Shown: positions 4,273 through 38,959 of the stretch, piece by piece
Layout: every line of letters begins with the position of its first letter
Position numbering within the stretch: the first letter of the stretch is position 1
Origin: Rhizobium sp. SG_E_25_P2
GTDB lineage: Bacteria; Pseudomonadota; Alphaproteobacteria; Rhizobiales; Rhizobiaceae
Assembly (NCBI RefSeq): GCF_029892285.1
Contig: NZ_JARXVM010000001.1
Location: 620,001 to 684,000 of the forward strand
Length of the DNA: 64,000 nucleotides
Direction: 5' to 3'
The notes under the pieces: model-generated
What the model was told of the DNA's origin: nothing
Seen by the model: the letters and a program-made list of their open reading frames with translations, nothing else
Databases searched by the model: none
Made by a program: the position numbers and the translations under genes

Positions 4273-6171
4273 TCACCGGCCCTTGCGCTTGGCGCCGCGC
4301 GCCTGTTCCGCCTCATCGGCGAACAGCGCCGCCAATTGTTCGGTCATCGCCCCCGCCAGTTCGTCCGCATCGATGATCGTGACCGCCTTGCGATAATAGC
4401 GGGTGACGTCGTGACCAATGCCGATGGCCAGAAGCTCGACCGGCGACTTGGTCTCGATCTCCTCGATCACCGCCCGCAGATGCCGCTCCAGATAATTGCC
4501 CGGATTGACCGACAGGGTGGAATCGTCGACCGGCGCGCCGTCGGAGATCATCATCATGATCTTGCGCTGTTCGGGCCGGCCGAGCAGCCGGTTATGCGCC
4601 CAGATCAGCGCTTCGCCGTCGATATTCTCTTTCAGGAGACCCTCACGCATCATCAGACCAAGATTGCGCTTGGCGCGGCGCCAGGGGGCGTCGGCGGATT
4701 TATAGACGATGTGGCGGAGATCATTGAGACGTCCCGGCTGCGGCGGCTTGCCGCTCGCCAGCCACGCCTCGCGGCTTTGGCCGCCCTTCCAGGCCTTGGT
4801 GGTGAAGCCGAGGATTTCGACCTTCACGCCGCAGCGCTCCAGCGTGCGGGCGAGAATGTCGGCGCAAGTGGCGGCGACCGTGATCGGGCGACCGCGCATC
4901 GAGCCGGAATTGTCGATGACAAGACTGACCACGGTGTCGCGGAACTTGGTGTCGCGCTCCATCTTGAACGACAGCGGCTGCATGGGGTCGATGACCATGC
5001 GCACCAGACGGGCGCTGTCGAGATAGCCTTCCTCGAGATCGAAATCCCAGGAACGGTTCTGCTGCGCCATCAGCCGCCGCTGCAGCTTGTTGGCGAGCCG
5101 GCCCACGGCGCCCTGGAGATGGGCGAGCTGCTTGTCGAGAAACGCCCGGAGACGATCGAGTTCGGCTTCGTCGCACAGCTCGTCGGCGGAGATTTCCTCA
5201 TCGAATTCCTGGGTGAAGACGTGGTAATCGACTTTTTCATTGAGATCGGACAGCGGATTGTTGGGCCGCTTGACCTCGCCGGGGGTCTCGGAGTCCTCGT
5301 CGGACTCCTCCATGAGATCGTCTTCGGATATCTCGGCGCCGTCTGTCTCGCCCTGATCGAGCTGTTCGTCGGCGGCTTCGTTCTCCTCGGCGGGCGCCTC
5401 TTCGGTTCCCGCTTCGTCCTCGTTTTCTTCGTCGTTCTGTTCCTGGCTGCGCGGCTGTTCTTCCTCGGAGGTCGTATCGTCCTCATCCGGTTGGGCCGTT
5501 TCGTTGGAAATATCCTCGGCCAACTGCATTGAGGCCAACATCGAGCGGATAGCCCGGGCGAAACTTTCCTGGTCGTCGATGACGTTCCTCAGCGACCCGA
5601 CTTCGCGCTCGGCCGTCTCCTGGAAGAAATCGCGCCAGAGATCGAGAACAGGACCGGCGCTTTCCGGCGGCTTCTCGCCGGTCAGCGCTTCGCGCACATA
5701 CAGAGACATCGCCTCTTCGATCGGCGCGTCCTGCCGCTGCGAGACGCCGCGGAAATTGGCGCGGGCATATTTGTCCGTCAGCATGGAGGAGAGGTTTGCG
5801 GCCATGCCGGCCATGCGGCTTGCGCCGAGCGCTTCGACGCGCGCTTGCTCGACCGCGTCATAGATGGCGCGCGCGTCCTGCCCCTGTGGGGCGAATTGCG
5901 TGTGCAACCGTTCGTCATGGCAAGCCTTGCGCAACGCCATGGAATCGCCCAGGCCGCGCACGATGGAGAGCTCCATCGCGGTTGGCCGCTTGGAAAGCTC
6001 CGGCAAGCGCATGCGATCGCCGGCAAAGCCCGGACGGTCATTGGCGAAGGCCACCTCGACCTCCGCCGATTCCGCCACCGAGCGAATGCAGCCCGTCAGC
6101 GCCCGGCGGAAGGGTTCGAGATCGACGGCCGCGCCCGGCCTCGCCTTGGAATTGTCGCCCGGTCCAGCCAT
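4273..6171 (-). CDS. cobT: Aerobic cobaltochelatase subunit CobT
   Basis: The 632-residue CobT subunit of the ATP-dependent CobN-CobS-CobT complex, which inserts Co2+ into hydrogenobyrinic acid a,c-diamide in aerobic cobalamin synthesis. Visible are an N-terminal cobalamin-biosynthesis domain, a long glutamate/aspartate-rich linker (about residues 220-310), and a C-terminal von Willebrand A-type domain with the metal-binding DNSGSMRG motif and [13 protein letters not shown]. The protein ends in a basic tail. It starts 10 bp after cobS on the same strand, so the two are surely co-transcribed. CobN, the large chelatase subunit, is not in this window. Confidence 0.97.
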
Positions 6172-8284: not shown

Positions 8285-8346
8285 TCGAACCGATTGGATC
8301 ATGTCCATCGCCTGTGCTATTCTCCTGATTGCACCGGAGGCGGATT

Positions 8347-8586
8347 ATGATGCTTGTGCTCGAAGATGAAGACGTCGTTCAACTCGCAACGCGATTGGCG
8401 GAGCGGCGTAATGTCACCCCCACGCAAGTTCTTCGTGACGCACTCACGCGGGAATGGAGCCGGGAGGTCGGAGACGCATCGATGATCGACGCCGTGAGGA
8501 AGATCCAGTCTAAGCTACGCGCGCTATCCGATCCGCGAAAGGCTCAGCCTGTCGACAAGGATTTCATCGACAGCCTTTACGAGTAG
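8347..8586 (+). CDS. VapB-like antitoxin (PSK-type transcription factor)
   Basis: A 79-residue small protein. It starts at a double ATG (8347, 8350) after a clear CCGGAGGCGG ribosome site. The N-terminal part (DVVQLATRLAERRNVTPTQV) resembles the ribbon-helix-helix DNA-binding region of PSK/VapB antitoxins, and the C-terminal VDKDFIDSLYE resembles the toxin-wrapping tail. It ends 3 bp before the PIN-domain gene, the normal antitoxin-first order, so it should both neutralise the toxin and autoregulate the operon. Confidence 0.85.
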   Translation: MMLVLEDEDVVQLATRLAERRNVTPTQVLRDALTREWSREVGDASMIDAVRKIQSKLRALSDPRKAQPVDKDFIDSLYE

Positions 8587-8589
8587 GCC

Positions 8590-8985
8590 ATGTTTATCGA
8601 CGTGTCCGCCATTTGCGCGATCATGATCAAGGAAGATGACGCCGAGATATTGATGGACAAAATCATGGCTGCCGCGACCAAACTCACCTCTCCGATGGCG
8701 GTCTGGGAAGCGACTCTTGCGGTTAGCCGCGCAACAGGGATCGCGACCGACGAGACGGCACATCTGGTCGATGAATTTTTGGCCGCCATCGTCGCTGAAA
8801 TCATCCCGATCACCACCGAGATGACCCCGCTCGCCATCGCCGCGCATCGCGATTACGGCAAGGAGCGGCATCCGGCGGCGCTGAATTTCGGGGATTGCTT
8901 CGCTTATGCCGCCGCGCGTCATCACCGACTGCCGCTCATGTTCAAGGGCGAGGATTTCATCAGGACGGACATCGAGCCCGCCTGA
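8590..8985 (+). CDS. VapC-like PIN-domain ribonuclease toxin
   Basis: A 131-residue PIN-domain protein. The acidic metal-binding residues of the family are present: Asp4 (FIDVSA), Glu40 (VWEATLA), Asp102 (NFGDCFAYA) and Glu121/Asp122 (FKGEDF). VapC toxins cleave tRNA or rRNA, and the target here is unknown. The gene follows its antitoxin by 3 bp. Its stop codon (8983-8985) directly abuts the stop codon of the opposing DUF2442 gene (8986), so the two transcripts collide tail to tail without any spacer. Confidence 0.9.
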   Translation: MFIDVSAICAIMIKEDDAEILMDKIMAAATKLTSPMAVWEATLAVSRATGIATDETAHLVDEFLAAIVAEIIPITTEMTPLAIAAHRDYGKERHPAALNFGDCFAYAAARHHRLPLMFKGEDFIRTDIEPA

Positions 8986-9396
8986 CTAGCTGATCTTGCG
9001 GGGACGGCCGCCCTTGGCGCCATTGGCCCGGCTGGCCTCGACCTTGGCCGCCGATCGCGATTGACCGCCGCGGCGTTGTGCCTCCATGAATTTGGCCGTC
9101 CCGAAGACGCCGTTCATCGGGCCCGCAATCGTGAAATCCGCATCCAGGCTTTCCCAGTGCAGGCCCGTCTCGCCCAAAAGCTCGACCTCAGCCAATTGCG
9201 CGTCCGTTGCCATCTCCAGGCCTTGAAGGGCGCGCGCCGGAGCCATGAAACAGGCGCCATTGGAGAAATCGACGACGATGCGGCCAGACGCCGCATCGAA
9301 CCGCACCGAGGACGGAATGGGGGCGTTGGCGCGCTGCGCCTCGCCCGCGCGCGTCGCCTGATAATAGTGTTGATCATCCAAAACGGCGTCAGCCAT
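8986..9396 (-). CDS. DUF2442 domain protein (copy 1)
   Basis: A 136-residue protein with a DUF2442 core: IPSSVRFDAASGRIVVDF, then a stretch ending in LGETGLHWESLDADFTI. The C-terminal extension is basic (GAKGGRPRKIS) and reminiscent of an AT-hook-like or nucleic-acid-binding tail. Function is unknown. Its start overlaps the end of the DUF4160 gene by 8 bp, so the two are translationally coupled. A second DUF4160-DUF2442 pair lies at 35501-35993. Confidence 0.82.
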   Translation of the reverse strand: MADAVLDDQHYYQATRAGEAQRANAPIPSSVRFDAASGRIVVDFSNGACFMAPARALQGLEMATDAQLAEVELLGETGLHWESLDADFTIAGPMNGVFGTAKFMEAQRRGGQSRSAAKVEASRANGAKGGRPRKIS

Positions 9397-9589
9397 GAAT
9401 GCGTCTCCATTGCGCGATCAGGTCGGCTTGATGATCCGCCACGAGAGCCAGCGCTCGACTTAGATCCCTCTTCGTCATCCCACGGTTCGTCAGGACGCGA
9501 AGGGTCAGAATGTCGATGCGCGCCTCTCCATCTCCATAGACATGCACATGGGCGGGCTCATGGTCATCCGTGTAGATGACAAAGCGCAT
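9389..9589 (-). CDS. DUF4160 domain protein (copy 1), start uncertain
   Basis: A 66-residue product from ATG 9589, with the family core HEPAHVHVYGDGEARI. The frame stays open upstream and encodes nine further codons, ATT-GTC-ACT-GTC-CTC-CGT-GAA and two more. Their translation TVLREAG matches the conserved N-terminus of the paralogue at 35751-35993 (MPTVLRKYGYRF). The paralogue's initiator ATG aligns with the ATT at 9616-9614, so translation may begin at ATT (75 residues), or the start codon may be lost and the protein truncated. No strong ribosome site is seen for either choice. Function is unknown. Confidence 0.78.
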   Translation of the reverse strand: MRFVIYTDDHEPAHVHVYGDGEARIDILTLRVLTNRGMTKRDLSRALALVADHQADLIAQWRRIHG

Positions 9590-32041: not shown

Positions 32042-32944
32042 GTGACCAATTTCCTGCTGTTTTCATCCACCGTGCTGATCTGGGGCACCACCTGGATCGC
32101 CATATCGCTGCAGATCGGACCCGTACCGGTGTTAGTGTCGGTGTTTTATCGGTTTGCGCTCGCGGCGCTGATCCTGGTCGGCTTTCTCCTGATCACCGGG
32201 AAGATGAAAGCGCCGCCTCTGAGGCAGCAACCCTACATCCTGATCCAGGCGCTGTCGCTGTTTTGCTGCAATTTCCTGTGCTTCTATCACGCGGCGGCCT
32301 ATGTGCCGTCAGGACTGATCTCCGTCGTCTTCTCGCTTGCCACGATCTACAATGCGGTCAATGCGAGGATCTTCTTTGGCGACAGCATCCACCCGCGCAC
32401 GCTTCTCGCTGCCGCCCTTGGGGCCGTTGGGCTGTGCCTGCTGTTCGGTCCGGACATCGTCGTCGCGGTGAAACCGGAGAGCTGGAAAGGCATCGGCCTC
32501 TCTGCTCTGGGCACGCTGTTCTTTTCGTTCGGCAACATGGCCTCTCGCCGCAACAGCGCCGCCGGCATCAAACCCGTCATCGCCAATGCCTGGGGCATGA
32601 CCTATGGCTCGATTGCGCTGCTTCTGCTGATCGCCGTCACGGGCGCGCCGATGGTTGCGCCGACCGACATGACCTATCTCGCGGCGCTTTTCTATCTCGC
32701 CGCTATTGGCTCCGTGGTCGCCTTCACCACATATCTGACCCTGGTGTCGCGGATCGGTTCACAGAAAGCCGCCTACGCCACCGTGCTGTTTCCGGTCGTG
32801 GCGCTCAGCCTGTCGAGCATTTACGAAGACTATCACTGGACGCCCATGGGGGTAGCAGGCCTGCTGCTGACGCTTGCCGGAAATGTCGTGATGTTCGCGC
32901 GTCTTCCGGAGCGGTTGAGGCCAACGGCCAAGGCCTTGTCATAA
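32042..32944 (+). CDS. EamA/DMT-family transporter
   Basis: A 300-residue inner-membrane protein with ten predicted hydrophobic segments arranged as two EamA repeats (first WGTTWIAI near the N-terminus, second AWGMTYGSIALLLL in the middle). This is typical of drug/metabolite exporters. There are two GTG codons, at 32036 and 32042; GGAG at 32033-32036 favours 32042. The substrate is unknown. It is divergent from an AraC regulator and convergent with pheT, separated from it by a hairpin. Confidence 0.9.
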   Translation: MTNFLLFSSTVLIWGTTWIAISLQIGPVPVLVSVFYRFALAALILVGFLLITGKMKAPPLRQQPYILIQALSLFCCNFLCFYHAAAYVPSGLISVVFSLATIYNAVNARIFFGDSIHPRTLLAAALGAVGLCLLFGPDIVVAVKPESWKGIGLSALGTLFFSFGNMASRRNSAAGIKPVIANAWGMTYGSIALLLLIAVTGAPMVAPTDMTYLAALFYLAAIGSVVAFTTYLTLVSRIGSQKAAYATVLFPVVALSLSSIYEDYHWTPMGVAGLLLTLAGNVVMFARLPERLRPTAKALS

Positions 32945-32950
32945 ACGAAG

Positions 32951-32974
32951 AAAGGGGCGGAAAACCGCCCCTTT
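32951..32974. terminator. Bidirectional hairpin terminator between EamA gene and pheT
   Basis: AAAGGGGCGG (32951-32960) and CCGCCCCTTT (32965-32974) form a perfect 10-bp stem with an AAAA loop. It lies between two convergent genes. The U-tract is short in both directions, but the stem's own A/T end supplies three U residues either way. Confidence 0.75.
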
Positions 32975-32998
32975 GCCATGTCTGCACTTATGAGCCGC

Positions 32999-35428
32999 TC
33001 AGCCGCGCAGGCTGCCGCCGGTGTTCTTTTCGACATTGGCGACGATGCGCTGCGACAGCGCCTCGAAATCCTCGTCGGTCAGCGTCTTGTCGACCGGCTG
33101 GATCGACACTTCGATGGCGATCGACTTCTTAGCGTCGCCGAGGGACGCGCCTTCGAAGACGTCGAACACCGAGACGCCGGTGATCAACTTGCGATCGGCG
33201 CTCTGGGCGGCCTTCAAAATGGAGGCAGCGTCCACCGTCTTGTCGACGACGAAGGCATAGTCGCGCTTGACCGCCTGGAAGGGCGAGAGGCCGAGCACCG
33301 GCTTGGTGCGGGTGGCCTTTTTCTTGGGGTCCGGCAGCTTGTCGAGCGACAGTTCGAAGCCGCAAAGGGCGCCTGACACATCCATCGCTTCCAGCGTCTT
33401 GGGATGGAATTCGCCGAAATGGCCGATGACCAGTTTCGGACCCATCTTGATCGTGCCGGAGCGACCGGGATGGAACCAGGCGGGACCACCCTGTTCGATC
33501 TGCAGATTGGCGGTCGGGAAGCCACAGGCTTCGAGCACCGCCAGCGCATCGGCCTTGGCGTCGAACACATCGACACCCTTGCCGCCGCCCTTGTCCTTGT
33601 TGGACCACAGGCGACCGGCGCCATTCAGCGTGGCCGTGCCGCGACGAATGCCGGCGGCCATACGGCGCTGGCCCGAGGGCGTATCGTCCTCATAGGCGCC
33701 GGAGACTTCGAACACGGCCACATCGCCATAGCCCTTGTCGGCATTGCGCTGGGCTGCGGTCAGGAGGCCGGGCAGCAGCGACGGACGCATGTCCGACATA
33801 TCCGCCGCGATGGGGTTCTCAAGCTTCAGCGCAGGCGAACCGCCGCCGAACAGGGCAGCCTGCTCAGCCGGGATGAAGGACCAGGTGACGGCTTCCAGCA
33901 TGCCGCGGGTCGCGAGCGCCCGCTTGGCGAGGCGGGTGCGGATCTGCAGCGTGGTGAGGATGCGGGTGTTGACCTCGCTGAGCCGCGGCAATGGCTGCGG
34001 CTTGACCTCGTTGATGCCATGCATGCGCATGACCTCTTCAACGAGATCCGCCTTGCCGTCGACGTCAGGACGCCAGGAAGGCACGGACACGTTCACGGCT
34101 TCGCCCTCGCCTTCGACGCCGAAACCGAGACGGTCGAGAATGGCGAGGCTCTCCGTACGGCTCACCTCGATGCCGGTCAGGCGCTTGACCTCGCTGAGCG
34201 GGAAGGAGACCTGACGCGGCTGATAGCCCTCGTAGCCGACGATGCGGGCTTCCGCGGCTTCGCCGCCGCAAAGCTCCAGCACCAGTTGGGTGGCGCGATC
34301 AAGACCCGGAACCATATATTCAGGATCGACGCCGCGCTCGAAACGGTAGCGCGCATCGGTGATGATGCCGAGCGAGCGGCCGGTGCGGGCGATGTTGAGC
34401 GGGCTCCACAGCGCCGATTCGATCAGCACGTCGGTGGTGTTCTCGTCGCAGCCCGAAAGCTCGCCGCCCATCACGCCGGCGATCGATTCCACGCCGTTGT
34501 CGTCGGAGATGACGACATTGGCCGGCGTGAGCGTATATTCCTTGCCGTCGAGCGCCAGCACCTTTTCACCTTCCACGGCGCGGCGCACGGTCAGGCCGCC
34601 CTTGACCTTGGCGGCGTCGAAGACATGCAGCGGCCGGCCCTGATCGAAGGTCAGATAGTTGGTGACGTCGACCAGCGCATTGATGGGGCGCAGGCCGATG
34701 GCGCGCAGACGCTTCTGCATCCAGGCCGGGCTCGGGCCATTCTTGACGCCGCGCACAAGGCGCAGCGCGAAGCCGGGGCAGAGCGTCTTGTCTTCGCCAT
34801 CGAAAGCCAGCGTGACGTTGACAGGCGTGTCGCCCGAAATCGGCAGCTCAGGCGTCTTCGGAGCCTTGAGCGTTCCGAGACCCGAAGCGGCGAGATCGCG
34901 GGCAATGCCGTAAATGCTCGTGCAATCGGGACGGTTCGGCGTCAGATTGATCTCGATGACCGGATCGTCAATGCCGAAATAACTCGCGAAAGAAGCGCCG
35001 ACAGGGGCATCCTCGGGCAGATCGATGATGCCGTTATGGTCGTCGGAAATCTCCAACTCCTTTTCCGAGCACATCATGCCGTGGCTTTCGACCCCACGGA
35101 TATTGCCGACCGACAGCGTCACGTCGATGCCAGGCACATAGGTCCCCGGGGCGGCGAAAGCCCCGATCAGGCCGGCGCGGGCGTTGGGTGCGCCGCAGAC
35201 CACCTGCACGGGCTTGCCCGCGCCGGTGTCGACGGAGAGAACCTTGAGCTTGTCGGCCTGCGGATGCTTGTCCGCCGTGAGGATTTTGGCGATCACGAAG
35301 GGCTTGAAAGAGGCCTTGTCGTCGACGCTTTCGACTTCGAGGCCGATCAGTGTCAGCCGCTCGCAGATGGCGTCGAGCGAGGCGTCGGTTTCAAGGTGAT
35401 CCTTGAGCCAGGAGAGTGTGAATTTCAT
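32999..35428 (-). CDS. pheT: Phenylalanyl-tRNA synthetase beta subunit
   Basis: An 809-residue subunit of the heterotetrameric enzyme that charges tRNA-Phe. Domains in order are a tRNA-binding OB fold (about residues 40-150, [20 protein letters not shown]), B3/B4 editing, B5, the catalytic-like core, and the C-terminal FDX-ACB anticodon-binding domain (about the last 95 residues: [20 protein letters not shown]). The length matches proteobacterial PheT. In most bacteria it directly follows pheS; here a DUF4160-DUF2442 pair lies between them, with 72 bp after DUF2442. Confidence 0.97.
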
Positions 35429-35500
35429 GGTCTTTTCTCAGTTTCCTATGCCATGCCCCGCAACGAGCCAGCCATTCAAATCTTTTAGTGTTCAGCCCGC

Positions 35501-35776
35501 TCAGGCAGCCTTTTCGGGCGCAGTGGCGCTCGGATATTTCCAGCCCGCCAGCATGCCGCGAACAGATAGATCTTCATCGAGGTCCGGCCAGTGAACGCCG
35601 TCCAACATCAACTCGACATTGTTTCGCTGAGACGGCGTCGCGCCATGAAGACTTGGATACCACCATAAGGGCGTGACGACTTCGCGTCCGTCCGCCAGTC
35701 GCACATGGAGGTTATGCAGATCGCACCAGGCTTCGACGGGGCGTTGATTGTCAGGATACGGATCTGAAGAATTCAT
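35501..35776 (-). CDS. DUF2442 domain protein (copy 2), inside pheS-pheT
   Basis: A 91-residue DUF2442 protein: LHNLHVRLADGREVVTPLWW at the core and LDGVHWPDLDEDLSVRGML towards the end. It lacks the long basic tail of copy 1 at 8986-9396. Its start overlaps the DUF4160 gene by 26 bp. Function is unknown. It lies in the pheS-pheT operon, so it is probably transcribed with the essential synthetase genes. Confidence 0.85.
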   Translation of the reverse strand: MNSSDPYPDNQRPVEAWCDLHNLHVRLADGREVVTPLWWYPSLHGATPSQRNNVELMLDGVHWPDLDEDLSVRGMLAGWKYPSATAPEKAA

Positions 35777-35993
35777 TCCAGGCCTCCATCATCTCTCGCC
35801 TGTGTTCATGGATTGCGTCGAGTATACGACGCTTCTCCGCGTTGTTTAAGCCCGACGCCTCCGCGAACTCGGCCGTAGCGAGCCAGACTTTCGCCTTGCC
35901 GCCATGACCGGTCACATGGATATGCGGCGGCTCATGCATATCCGAGCCGTAGAAGTGAAACCGATATCCATATTTGCGGAGAACGGTCGGCAT
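35751..35993 (-). CDS. DUF4160 domain protein (copy 2), inside pheS-pheT
   Basis: An 80-residue DUF4160 protein with the family pattern MPTVLRKYGYRFHFY, then HEPPHIHVTGHGG. The histidine-rich HEPPHIHV core could bind a metal or be catalytic. It starts 4 bp after the pheS stop codon and overlaps the DUF2442 gene by 26 bp, so pheS, DUF4160 and DUF2442 are translationally close. The pairing with DUF2442 repeats that at 8986-9589. Function unknown; small, tightly paired genes of this kind are candidates for toxin-antitoxin-like modules. Confidence 0.87.
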   Translation of the reverse strand: MPTVLRKYGYRFHFYGSDMHEPPHIHVTGHGGKAKVWLATAEFAEASGLNNAEKRRILDAIHEHRREMMEAWNEFFRSVS

Positions 35994-35997
35994 TTCA

Positions 35998-37080
35998 TCA
36001 CACGCTCAAACCGCCGAAAAGGGTCGGCAGGTCGAGCGGGCGGAAGCCGTAATGGTTCATCCACCTGACATCGGCGTTGAAGAAATCGCGCAGGTCCGGC
36101 ATGCCGTATTTCAGCATGGCGATGCGGTCGAGCCCCATGCCCCAGGCAAAACCCTGATATTCGTCGGGATCGAGGCCGCCGGCGCGCAGCACATTGGGAT
36201 GCACCATGCCGCAGCCGAGGATTTCCATCCAGTCATTGCCTTCGCCGAACTTCACCACGTCGCCCGAGCGATCGCACTGGATATCGACTTCGACCGACGG
36301 TTCGGTGAAGGGGAAGAAGGACGGGCGGAAGCGCATATTGACCGAGGGCACTTCGAAGAAGGCCTTGCAGAACTCTTCCAGCACCCAGCGCATATTGGCG
36401 ACATTGGCCGTCTTGTCGATCACCAGGCCTTCGACCTGATGGAACATCGGCGAATGGGTGGCGTCGGAATCCTGGCGATAGGTCTTGCCGGGAATGATAA
36501 TGCGGATCGGCGGCTTCTGCGTTTCCATCGTCCTGATCTGCACCGGCGACGTGTGGGTGCGCAGCACCTTGCGCTCGCCATTCGCGTCAGGCGGCAGGAA
36601 GAAGGTGTCGTGCATTTCGCGGGCGGGGTGGCCGACGGGGAAATTCAGCGCCGTGAAATTGTAGTGGTCGGTTTCAATATCCGGACCTTCGGCGATCGAG
36701 AAACCCATATCGCCGAAGATCGCGGTGATCTCGTCGATGATCTGGGTGATCGGATGGATGCGGCCGCGTTCGGCCGGAGACGAGCGAACCGGCAGCGTCA
36801 CGTCGACCGTTTCGCGGGCGAGGCGCTCATTGATCGCCTGGTCGCGCAGCAAGGTCTTGCGCTCGGTGATCGCGTTGGTCACCTCGGCCTTGATGACGTT
36901 GATCGCCGCGCCGCGCGTCTGGCGTTCTTCCGGGCTCATGGCGCCCAGCGTCTTCAGGAGTTCCGAGATCGAACCCTTCTTGCCAAGCGCATTGACGCGA
37001 ACGGCCTCGATCGCCGCTTCGTCCGCCGCGCCGGCGATTTCCTCGAGAATGGTGTGCTTCAACTGATCGAGATCGGACAT
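35998..37080 (-). CDS. pheS: Phenylalanyl-tRNA synthetase alpha subunit
   Basis: A 360-residue class II synthetase subunit. An N-terminal coiled-coil tRNA-binding region (about residues 1-90) is followed by the catalytic domain with [20 protein letters not shown] (motif 2 region), [19 protein letters not shown] and the motif 3 stretch [14 protein letters not shown]. The length matches other alphaproteobacterial PheS. It follows rplT after a leader that holds an intrinsic terminator and a short open frame (37109-37168), which suggests attenuation control. Confidence 0.97.
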
Positions 37081-37108
37081 GTGTCGCTCGTAAGATTTGC
37101 GGATGATA

Positions 37109-37168
37109 TCAGGCGGACAAGAAAAAACCCGCGCCAGCCGTGCCAGCGCGGGTTTCCCATAATTCCAT
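37109..37168 (-). CDS. Candidate pheS leader peptide (19 residues)
   Basis: A short frame ATG-GAA-TTA-TGG to TGA between rplT and pheS encodes [19 protein letters not shown]. It runs through the terminator hairpin, and its two Phe codons (TTT TTC) are the U-tract of that terminator. In E. coli the PheM leader peptide occupies the same rplT-pheS position. No strong ribosome site is seen, so translation is unproven and the Phe codons may be a by-product of the U-tract. Confidence 0.35.
37121..37155 (-). terminator. Intrinsic terminator/attenuator upstream of pheS
   Basis: On the minus strand AAACCCGCGC and GCGCGGGTTT (37146-37155 and 37125-37134 on the plus strand) form a 10-bp stem with an 11-nt loop, followed by a U-run. 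It lies after rplT and 41 bp before pheS. It may end the rpmI-rplT transcript, or act as a regulated attenuator for pheS-pheT. Confidence 0.85.
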
Positions 37169-37188
37169 AGTCTTGGGAAGCGCTGACC

Positions 37189-37593
37189 TTAACGGACGAC
37201 GCTTTCAAACTCGTTGGTGGTGCCCTTGTCCTTCAGGTAGCCGAGAGCCTTCTTGGAGGCTTCGACGAGCGCGCCGAAGGCTTCAGCCTGGGTGATCGCC
37301 ATGTTGGACAGGACCTTGCGGTCGACTTCGATGCCAGCCTTGGACAGGCCGTCGATGAAGCGGCCATAGGTCAGGCCGTGCTCGCGGACAGCGGCGTTGA
37401 TGCGCTGGATCCAGAGAGCGCGGAAATTGCGCTTCTTGACCTTACGGTCGCGCGTCGCATACTGCATCGAGCGATCGACGGCAGCCTTGGCGGCGCGGAT
37501 GGTGTTCTTGCGACGGCCGTAAAAGCCCTTGGCGGCCTTCAGAACCTTCTTGTGCTTGGCGTGGGCGGTAACGCCTCTCTTTACACGTGCCAT
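37189..37593 (-). CDS. rplT: 50S ribosomal protein L20
   Basis: A 134-residue basic ribosomal protein. The N-terminus [19 protein letters not shown] and the central [20 protein letters not shown] are diagnostic of L20, which binds 23S rRNA early in assembly and in many bacteria represses its own operon. It follows rpmI by 41 bp. In many bacteria infC heads this operon; here infC is about 8 kb away on the same strand. Confidence 0.98.
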
Positions 37594-37634
37594 GTCATGA
37601 TCTCCTTAGTGTTCTTTTTCGCGGCTTCTTAGTC

Positions 37635-37838
37635 TCAGAGACCATTCGGCAGGTAGTTCTTGATCACCTTGCGGCCATCGGGTTCAGCCAGAACCATGGT
37701 GCCGCGGGCGTCGCGAATGAACTTGTTGGAACGCTTGATCATGCCGTGGCGCTTGCCGGCGGCGGCTGCCTTGACCTTGCCGGTAGCAGTGATCTTGAAC
37801 CGCTTTTTAGCGGCAGACTTCGTCTTCATCTTGGGCAT
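37635..37838 (-). CDS. rpmI: 50S ribosomal protein L35
   Basis: A 67-residue ribosomal protein with the canonical [15 protein letters not shown] start, [13 protein letters not shown] in the middle and an IKNYLPNGL end. It is first in the rpmI-rplT pair. A good promoter is presumably in the 155 bp upstream. Confidence 0.98.
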
Positions 37839-37993
37839 TTTGCTACTCCATTGTTCTGGTTTTTGTGAAACCGGCTGATGAGGCCCATTTCAAGCATAAA
37901 GAACGGCCACGGCATGCCCTGCCGGACCGTTCGGACGGGCGGCTTATACAGTCAGTCCGACAAAAGCGCAACTGGCTGGAAACGGAATCTTTT

Positions 37994-38959
37994 TCAGCGC
38001 TCAGCGGACTTTTTGCGAGAGGAAAGCGGCAAGGCCAAAGCGGTCGCCGCCAGCGCCGAGACCACGATCAGGAGATGGCCGTTGACCGAGGCCTGCAGGA
38101 GCTCCGAAAAACCCGAACCCGATCTGGCGGCGCCGAAAGCCATGGCCCCGGCGGCAATACCAGCCGGATAGGTGCCGACGCCGGCGGGCGCGTGCAGTGG
38201 CAGCACCGAAGAGAGTTCGCCGCCGACCGCGCCGCCGAAGGCAGCCGCGAGCGGCGAAACGCCCATCATCGACAGCGACAGGCCCAGCGCCGCAACCTTG
38301 ATCAGCCAATTGAGCACCGTCAGCGCCCAGGCGAGCAGGAAGGCGGGCAGATGCGGCGGCAGACCATCGGCCATCTGGTCGAGCTTGTCCGCCAATCTCT
38401 TGGGAGCGCGGCACTGCAGCCAGCCGACCAGGCGCCGGCTGACCGGGAAAAACAAAAGCGGCAGAAGCAGAAACACCGTCCAGAAGGCCCAGGCGAGGAG
38501 GGAAAACCCGGCCCTGGCCACCAGAGCCAGCCCTGCGGCCAGCGTCAGCGCATGCAGGTCGAGCAGCCGGAGAACAACGAGCGCCGAAGCGCCGCGCATG
38601 ACCGGCAGGCCGAATTCCGCGCGCATCAACACTGGAAAAGAGACTTCACCGCTGCGGAAAGGCAGCATGATATTGAGGAGATTGTGGATCTGCGTCAGGC
38701 GATAGAGTTGGAGAAAAGAGCCCTGGGGCAAATCGGGAAAATAGCTCGCCATCCGATTCGTGCGGATGAACTGCGTGGCGATCAATGCCAGGATCGAGGC
38801 GAGGATGGTCGGAGCGCCGATCGAGGCCCAGTTGGCGAGCACGACGCTCCAGCCGAAATAGACCTGAATGAAAACTGCATAAGCCAGCACGCAAACGCCA
38901 GCGAGCAGCGCCAATCGGTGCCGGGACCATCCGGCCTCTCGTCTGGGTATGTTGGCCAT
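37994..38959 (-). CDS. Lysylphosphatidylglycerol synthase transmembrane-type protein
   Basis: A 321-residue polytopic membrane protein of the LPG synthase TM-domain/UPF0104 family, with about eight hydrophobic segments. Family-like stretches include QIHNLLNIMLPFRSGEVSFP near residue 95 and HAPAGVGTYPAG near residue 265. It lacks the cytoplasmic aminoacyl-transfer domain of full MprF proteins, so lysine transfer is not expected. Family members such as AglD are linked to lipid-carrier-dependent glycosylation. It is divergent from the GT2-GT39 pair, 92 bp away, suggesting shared regulation. Confidence 0.82.
   Translation of the reverse strand: MANIPRREAGWSRHRLALLAGVCVLAYAVFIQVYFGWSVVLANWASIGAPTILASILALIATQFIRTNRMASYFPDLPQGSFLQLYRLTQIHNLLNIMLPFRSGEVSFPVLMRAEFGLPVMRGASALVVLRLLDLHALTLAAGLALVARAGFSLLAWAFWTVFLLLPLLFFPVSRRLVGWLQCRAPKRLADKLDQMADGLPPHLPAFLLAWALTVLNWLIKVAALGLSLSMMGVSPLAAAFGGAVGGELSSVLPLHAPAGVGTYPAGIAAGAMAFGAARSGSGFSELLQASVNGHLLIVVSALAATALALPLSSRKKSAER

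Follow-up and report, generated by a model that had tools for sequence, protein, structure and literature searches.

A probable toxin–antitoxin pair inside the pheS–pheT operon

Why should two small genes lie between pheS and pheT, which encode the alpha and beta subunits of phenylalanine--tRNA ligase? The question is raised by 64,000 nt of Rhizobium sp. SG_E_25_P2 (contig NZ_JARXVM010000001.1, positions 620,001 to 684,000), referred to here as the window. On its minus strand, pheS (35998-37080; Pfam tRNA-synt_2d, 2.4e-99; NCBIfam TIGR00468, 336 bits against a cut-off of 237) is followed by an open reading frame (ORF) for an 80-amino-acid DUF4160 protein (35751-35993; PF13711, 2e-19, 70 bits against a cut-off of 23), an ORF for a 91-amino-acid DUF2442 protein with the C-terminal residues APEKAA (35501-35776; PF10387, 7e-18, 65.1 bits against 23.9), and pheT (32999-35428; NCBIfam TIGR00472, 710 bits against 403). 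All four proteins pass the Pfam cut-offs. The DUF4160 frame begins after a spacer of only 4 bp (35994-35997) behind pheS, too short for a separate promoter; the two small frames overlap by 26 bp (35751-35776), and a 72-bp leader (35429-35500) precedes pheT. A preliminary description of the locus had reported two small genes on the same strand with this gap and overlap, and both its coordinates and its description are confirmed. The arrangement is not due to chance, since order and strand recur in relatives and the ratio of nonsynonymous to synonymous substitution rates (dN/dS) is mostly below 0.2.

The pair is predicted to be of a known kind, a type II toxin–antitoxin (TA) module of the dhiTA type, with the DUF4160 protein as the DhiT-like putative toxin and the DUF2442 protein as the DhiA-like putative antitoxin. 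Its setting appears to be new; in the open-licence literature surveyed, chiefly titles and abstract openings, we found no description of TA modules between pheS and pheT. We consider it probable that the module is a promoter-less cassette, expressed by read-through, in a long-standing dock. By dock we mean the pheS–pheT junction; copies in that gap are called lodged, and copies elsewhere in a genome are called outside.

Relatives of the pair have been characterized experimentally. In Dickeya dadantii 3937, the dhiTA toxin gene comes first and the genes overlap, as in the window; the toxin is reported to inhibit growth in both E. coli and Dickeya, and the pair is not (PMC8198452). The two systems differ in that a 100-bp fragment upstream of Dickeya dhiTA has promoter activity, repressed by the antitoxin and by the complex (PMC8198452), whereas the window module begins almost immediately after pheS and has a sub-cut-off DhiT score. 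On the Thermus plasmids pIOK1 and pIOK9, tandem DUF4160 and DUF2442 ORFs (87 and 92 amino acids) are reported to enhance plasmid persistence; loss of the second ORF is not tolerated in Thermus, where a plasmid with that deletion gave no transformants (PMC12724237). That module is a plasmid stabilizer downstream of a replication gene, whereas the window pair is chromosomal and sits in an essential operon. A marine survey of 2025 also names DUF4160/DUF2442 as one of its TA pairs (PMC12654330). The window DUF4160 protein matches 34 of the 72,556 plasmid records in PLSDB, including a 3,484-bp plasmid that carries a DUF4160/DUF2442 pair, a hypothetical ORF, a relaxase and RepB, and it matches 1 of the 50,697 records of a phage collection. 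The suggestion in the preliminary description that the pair is addiction-like is well supported by homology to the tested DUF4160/DUF2442 pairs, by plasmid occurrence, and by a one-sided pattern of decay (8 cases to 0, described below).

In the AlphaFold2 model of the DUF4160 protein (pLDDT 92), five strands are accompanied by a long C-terminal helix, and comparison of the model with the PDB gave no match at E <0.001. The model of the DUF2442 protein resembles the solved chains 3k8r and 2x8n. Within an EPPHxH...KxW stretch, residues E21, P22, H26, K35 and W37 are invariant in all eight aligned lodged DUF4160 proteins. Hip-type TA kinases can act on tRNA ligases, and Legionella HipT is reported to phosphorylate PheS, with PheST failing to rescue growth (PMC10653801); we saw no relation of DUF4160 to Hip-type kinases in this analysis. 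Identity as a defence system was also considered and rejected, the window pair having no PADLOC match.

Occupancy of the dock

The insertion is not confined to this strain. We surveyed pheS–pheT neighbourhoods in a named set, consisting of the pheS loci of the best 80 of at least 532 relatives (L numbers), and in a family set (G numbers), for which 151 genomes belonging to the GTDB family were taken from a larger group. The two sets overlap in part (for example, L075 is G071), and all rows in our trees differ. DUF4160 lies in the gap in 6 of the 80 named loci and in 23 of the 140 family genomes for which the gap was measured.

In the named set, the gap is 12–37 bp at 66 loci and 131–1710 bp at 14. 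Six of the 14 wide gaps hold dhiTA-like pairs (L005, L012, L017, L025, L026 and L081), with two in tandem in L017, and the gap of L007 holds a dhi relic of ~31 codons. In the family set, PheS was found in 150 of 151 genomes, as was PheT. Among the 11 genomes without a measured gap, pheS and pheT are not neighbours in five, and in the other six either a gene is missing or no match to the PheT start was listed. The 140 gaps comprise 56 shorter than 80 bp, 7 of 86–141 bp and 77 of 319–2626 bp, and values taken from match ends are ~3 bp too large where the last PheS residue is unmatched.

The family set has 86 DUF4160 matches in 57 genomes. Twenty-four of these, in 23 genomes, fall inside the pheS–pheT gap, all on the pheS strand, and ~0.02 would be expected for a 1-kb site. 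As a control we used glyQ–glyS: in 44 of the 57 genomes with DUF4160, the two genes are linked and their span could be measured, for a total of 98.7 kb. None of the 66 DUF4160 matches in those genomes lies between glyQ and glyS; 19 lie between pheS and pheT. A DUF2442 partner is found downstream in 32 of 33 lodged DUF4160 matches, the G053 fragments being counted apart, and the remaining match is the L007 relic.

The control regions have features of their own. glyQ–glyS, another two-subunit tRNA synthetase pair, holds variable cargo between its genes, with spans of 45–6103 bp in the 44 linked genomes; hence we dropped it as an invariant control and used it for DUF4160 content only. The invariant control is rpmI–rplT, next upstream of the dock, with 35–41 bp in 80 of 80 loci. 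Between rplT and pheS (L004-L083), spacing falls into classes of 93–316 bp and 941–1051 bp, the latter in 16 of the 77 loci listed; thus, something ~0.8 kb long lies between rplT and pheS in a subset.

Lineages seen only in the dock

Do lodged modules derive from those found elsewhere in the same genomes? We built a joint tree of toxin and antitoxin from 31 modules lodged in the dock and 18 that lie outside it in genomes of the family. The outside modules come from 59 fetched loci out of 62 matches; profiles built from lodged modules gave a DUF2442 partner in 35, no partner in 14 and no DUF4160 in 10, and 17 of the 35 pairs, with partner scores below 60, were left out of this tree. All 31 lodged modules fall on one side of a branch (support 90/49), in two subclades with support of 100/99 each. 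The window module belongs to clade 1.

We then searched more widely. At E 1e-12, a lodged-DUF4160 profile matches 7 of 385 genomes of the class and 13 of 249 genomes of the order. Besides the window, only G128 (already counted) and G583 have such matches beside pheS and pheT (within ~1.5 kb of flank), and the lodged module of G583 (L248) belongs to another family of the order. When the joint tree is extended with L248 and 14 further modules, two partial ones being omitted, all 32 lodged modules group in a single clade (98/86). In a toxin-only tree (96 rows and 78 columns, with no row dropped for its partner, and G053 and L007 left out), clade 2 is recovered at 100/98 and clade 1 at 93/62, neither with outside rows, and the approximately unbiased (AU) test does not reject a tree that unites all the lodged rows (p 0.25). 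Repeated random insertion of any available dhiTA is not favoured, as none of the outside copies examined falls within a lodged clade. Among the genomes searched, the lodged dhiTA modules make up two clades of their own, and the site is a recurring berth for such pairs.

Other cargo and brnTA

The gap also holds other genes, whose names rest on Pfam and on directly matching seed proteins. They encode BrnT/BrnA (L058), GFA (L017, L058), ASCH (L054), Rv2179c-like exoribonuclease (L081, G139), HEPN (G069), GIY-YIG (G135) and histidine phosphatase (G058) proteins, and several gap proteins have no Pfam match. Where present, dhi or brn genes come first after pheS, with brn ahead of dhi when both occur (G032, L081), and any accompanying GFA gene is placed later in the gap. 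The gaps of G069, G087, G088, G122, G020 and G053 carry a ~105-amino-acid protein without a name and a ~155-amino-acid HEPN-like protein (tested against Pfam in G069 only), which may possibly be a third TA-like pair in the dock.

BrnT/BrnA is a second type II TA family with a pheS–pheT lineage in relatives, and it is absent from the window's own gap. BrnT occurs in at least 81 genomes of the family set, and among the matches listed five are in the gap (G032, G094, G107, G113 and G131). In a tree of 9 lodged and 15 outside brnTA pairs, the lodged lineage has support of 98/98; the outside pairs come from 20 fetched loci, of which 19 yielded BrnT and 15 the pair, and two lodged BrnT sequences (G113 and G042) are fragments. 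A BrnT profile search of the 151 genomes scored four lodged copies at 128–155 bits, the lodged G113 fragment at 93.6 and the best outside copy at 89.6. Seven of the eight listed lodged brnTA modules carry a slightly varying palindrome around TTGTGGCCACAA directly after the pheS stop; G113, the eighth, has a similar one further on. The conserved TTTATTTGTGGCCACAAATAAAT-like palindrome just past the pheS stop separates pheS from brnT in L058, L064, L081, G032, G094, G107 and G131. We regard it as a candidate operator for BrnA within pheST.

The Pseudomonas aeruginosa core defence hotspot cDHS1 likewise holds variable cargo near translation genes, pheS and pheT among them; it has a median length of 26 kb, and its reported neighbours are ihfA, a MerR gene, a proline tRNA and a DUF4011 gene (PMC10250203). 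In contrast to the window cargo, which lies between pheS and pheT, cDHS1 appears from that description to lie away from that junction.

Is the dock simply a tolerant intergenic site, open to any small gene because pheS and pheT each have a ribosome site of their own, with TA modules just common among such genes? The diversity of cargo is consistent with this, as are the gaps in other families of the order, where 40 of 84 measured genomes have at least 80 bp and 44 have less (27 of these -1 or -4). However, tolerance leaves unexplained why the lodged copies of dhiTA and of brnTA form clades apart from the outside copies examined, and why strand and order are uniform. We consider this explanation quite unlikely.

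Decay and selection

A module in which the toxin needs its antitoxin should decay in one direction. We surveyed 98 gaps (84 from the family set and 14 from the named set, with at least one record in both). For dhi, 29 modules have both partners. Six retain an intact antitoxin, whereas their toxin is broken, truncated or missing (G061, G069, G087, G053, the first module of G009 and the second of G080), none shows the reverse, and L007 has lost both partners. For brn, seven modules are intact, two have a split toxin (G113, G042) and none shows the reverse. Thus, in all eight modules with one-sided decay across the two families, the toxin is broken or missing and the antitoxin is kept, which is what a toxin needing its antitoxin predicts. 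Assembly errors may account for some of the toxin splits, and such errors would be expected in either gene alike. Among the modules with both partners, G128 (L153, L246) encodes DUF4160 and DUF2442 in one open frame of 168 amino acids, which could be a natural toxin–antitoxin fusion or a frameshift.

We estimated dN/dS for dhiT and dhiA in ten pairs of lodged modules. The ratio is below 0.2 in 19 of 20 estimates, with ranges of 0.03–0.38 for dhiT, 0.03–0.13 for dhiA and 0.02–0.16 for the first 396 bp of pheT, and synonymous sites are near saturation in several pairs. Lodged modules are under purifying selection about as strong as that on the first 396 bp of pheT.

Gain, loss and exchange

Filled and empty docks occur in close relatives. 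The closest named relative of the window strain, Rhizobium sp. FKL33 (L004; PheS 99% identical), has flanks 94–95% identical to those of the window and an empty junction of 14 bp. Similarly, R. wenxiniae HU50 (L026, filled) and DSM 100734 (L024, empty) have flanks that are 91–92% identical. Docks with similar flanks can also differ in their module: the window and Rhizobium sp. G21 (L005) have the pheS end in common, and the 54 bp immediately ahead of pheT are identical in both, but they carry modules of clade 1 and clade 2, respectively. Clade switches are also seen between the genus mates G024 and G125, and G060 and G148. On a glyQ tree of 40 genomes, 23 of them carriers and chosen on purpose, the distribution of the module requires 12 changes or more, and carriers cluster no more than they do when labels are shuffled.

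Distances between modules correlate weakly with glyQ distances (Spearman rho 0.22 and, for clade 2, 0.16); the same comparison with glyQ gives 0.69 and 0.62 for pheS ends, and 0.48 and 0.29 for pheT ends. Clade-2 module distances track the adjacent pheT end (rho 0.61) better than they track glyQ. We found no transposon or integron cassette signature: window positions 35400-36030 contain no direct or inverted repeats of at least 11 bp, and the pheS–pheT gap contains no integrase-size ORF; attC sites were not searched for.

In L026, the pheS end and the dhiT start (6051-6065 and 6088-6102; LPTLF and MPTLL) are alike at 14 of 15 bases. Such microhomology was rejected as the reason for the site, because outside dhiT starts are about as similar (10.4 versus 10.9 of 15 nt, P 0.10).

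Could the module have been recruited, so that lodged dhiTA ties growth control to the operon for phenylalanyl-tRNA synthetase (PheRS), for example by sensing pheST transcription or translation, or by acting at the PheRS–tRNA(Phe) step? Lodged modules from two families of the order group together in the joint tree, purifying selection is about as strong as on the first 396 bp of pheT, and a second TA family has its own lodged lineage with a conserved palindrome right after the pheS stop; all are in keeping with recruitment. Presence is patchy, however, as the changes on the glyQ tree and the 66 short junctions among the 80 named loci indicate, and the dock also holds unrelated cargo (GFA, ASCH, exoribonuclease and HEPN proteins). 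We therefore regard recruitment as a long shot. The preliminary description had called the link to PheRS unexplained and had suggested an addiction-like or translation-linked system. For a translation-linked role or a functional tie to PheRS, site fidelity and selection are all that speak; most relatives do without the module, and the junction of the closest named relative (L004) is empty.

Expression and a model for the lodged module

Among the 27 first-position matches listed, dhiT starts -1 to 17 bp after the pheS stop in 26, including the truncated G009 toxin and the split G053 toxin; the exception is L005. A separate dhiT promoter would therefore have to lie inside pheS. A search of window positions 32900-38300 against Rfam gave no matches.

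We propose the following model. The cassette would be transcribed by read-through from pheS, its dose being set by the essential operon. The DhiT-like toxin would be made first, and the DhiA-like antitoxin, translated from the overlapping frame, would bind and neutralize it. Loss of the antitoxin alone would be penalized, such that decay would normally start with the toxin; loss of the whole cassette would be penalized only as far as the toxin outlives the antitoxin. The module would belong to site-bound lineages that persist by descent with frequent loss; its transfer between related strains would probably occur by homologous recombination, with conserved pheS and pheT sequences as the arms and no integrase involved.

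Several observations weigh against this model. The window DUF4160 protein matches the NCBIfam DhiT model (NF048015) at 8e-11 and 42.4 bits, below the curated cut-off of 100, and is thus classed as a relative of Dickeya DhiT, not an equivalog. Growth inhibition by the toxin and relief by the antitoxin are extrapolated to the window copy from relatives. In E. coli, plasmids carrying the Thermus module with either ORF deleted are reported to be stable (PMC12724237); hence, not every such toxin acts everywhere. With regard to expression, one promoter-like match lies inside the window dhiT (35848-35821), with 0.3 expected.

The same evidence bears on whether the two genes have a function unrelated to toxicity and are not a TA pair. 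The weak match to the curated DhiT model fits such a function, and the window copy is known from sequence alone. On the other hand, two tested relatives are reported to behave as TA modules, and decay is one-sided across two TA families. A function of this kind is very improbable.

Further observations weigh against site-bound lineages that spread through homologous arms. In the toxin-only tree, clade 1, clade 2 and L248 are not one group (3 changes), and L240, from the class survey, is placed between L248 and clade 2. Clade-1 module distances track neither flank well (rho 0.24, and 0.05 for the pheT end), and so co-transfer with the flanks is not seen in clade 1. In the 41 closest module pairs, mean DNA identity is 77.7% for the module, 86.1% for the pheS end and 80.0% for the pheT end; the module is more alike than the pheS end in only two pairs and than the pheT end in ten. 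These pairs are therefore no evidence that the module was recently transferred alone. An old tandem, simply inherited vertically with many differential losses, is a real alternative to exchange, because clade-1 and clade-2 modules are in tandem in L017 and G009, and G080 has a lone clade-2-like antitoxin behind its clade-1 module.

Other DUF4160/DUF2442 genes of the strain

The preliminary description had called the module duplicated. There is indeed a second pair on the minus strand of the window, away from the dock (8986-9589), consisting of a DUF4160 ORF (9389-9589; PF13711, 2.9e-17) and an ORF for a 136-amino-acid DUF2442 protein with a basic tail (8986-9396; PF10387, 1.3e-16). It is a distant paralogue: the DUF4160 proteins are 29% identical and the DUF2442 proteins 33% identical (over 55 residues), which rules out a recent duplication inside the window. 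A third DUF4160 match in the genome is on another contig. At 8329-9589, a plus-strand VapB-like/PIN (VapBC) pair ends 1 base before this minus-strand pair, and the two would be TA modules arranged tail to tail.

Significance

What would a resident TA module mean for the pheS–pheT operon? One far-reaching possibility is that the junction is an order-wide, very old berth, in which unrelated TA families each founded a lineage that exists only there; in this view, lodged dhiTA modules have lost promoters of their own, lodged brnTA modules have placed an operator at the junction, and both are retained because they control the PheRS operon. We consider this doubtful as a whole. If true, the TA modules here would be site-bound residents of an essential operon, not wandering addiction genes. 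Descriptions of TA modules usually stress patchiness, mobility and promoters of their own. An essential-operon site that keeps lineages of two unrelated TA families, one of them without room for a promoter, is a natural experiment on module persistence, since filled, empty, tandem and half-decayed docks with similar flanks can be set side by side at a single defined locus. The locus also offers a genetic test, in situ, of which of the two partners is the toxin, with a short list of strains in which to do it.
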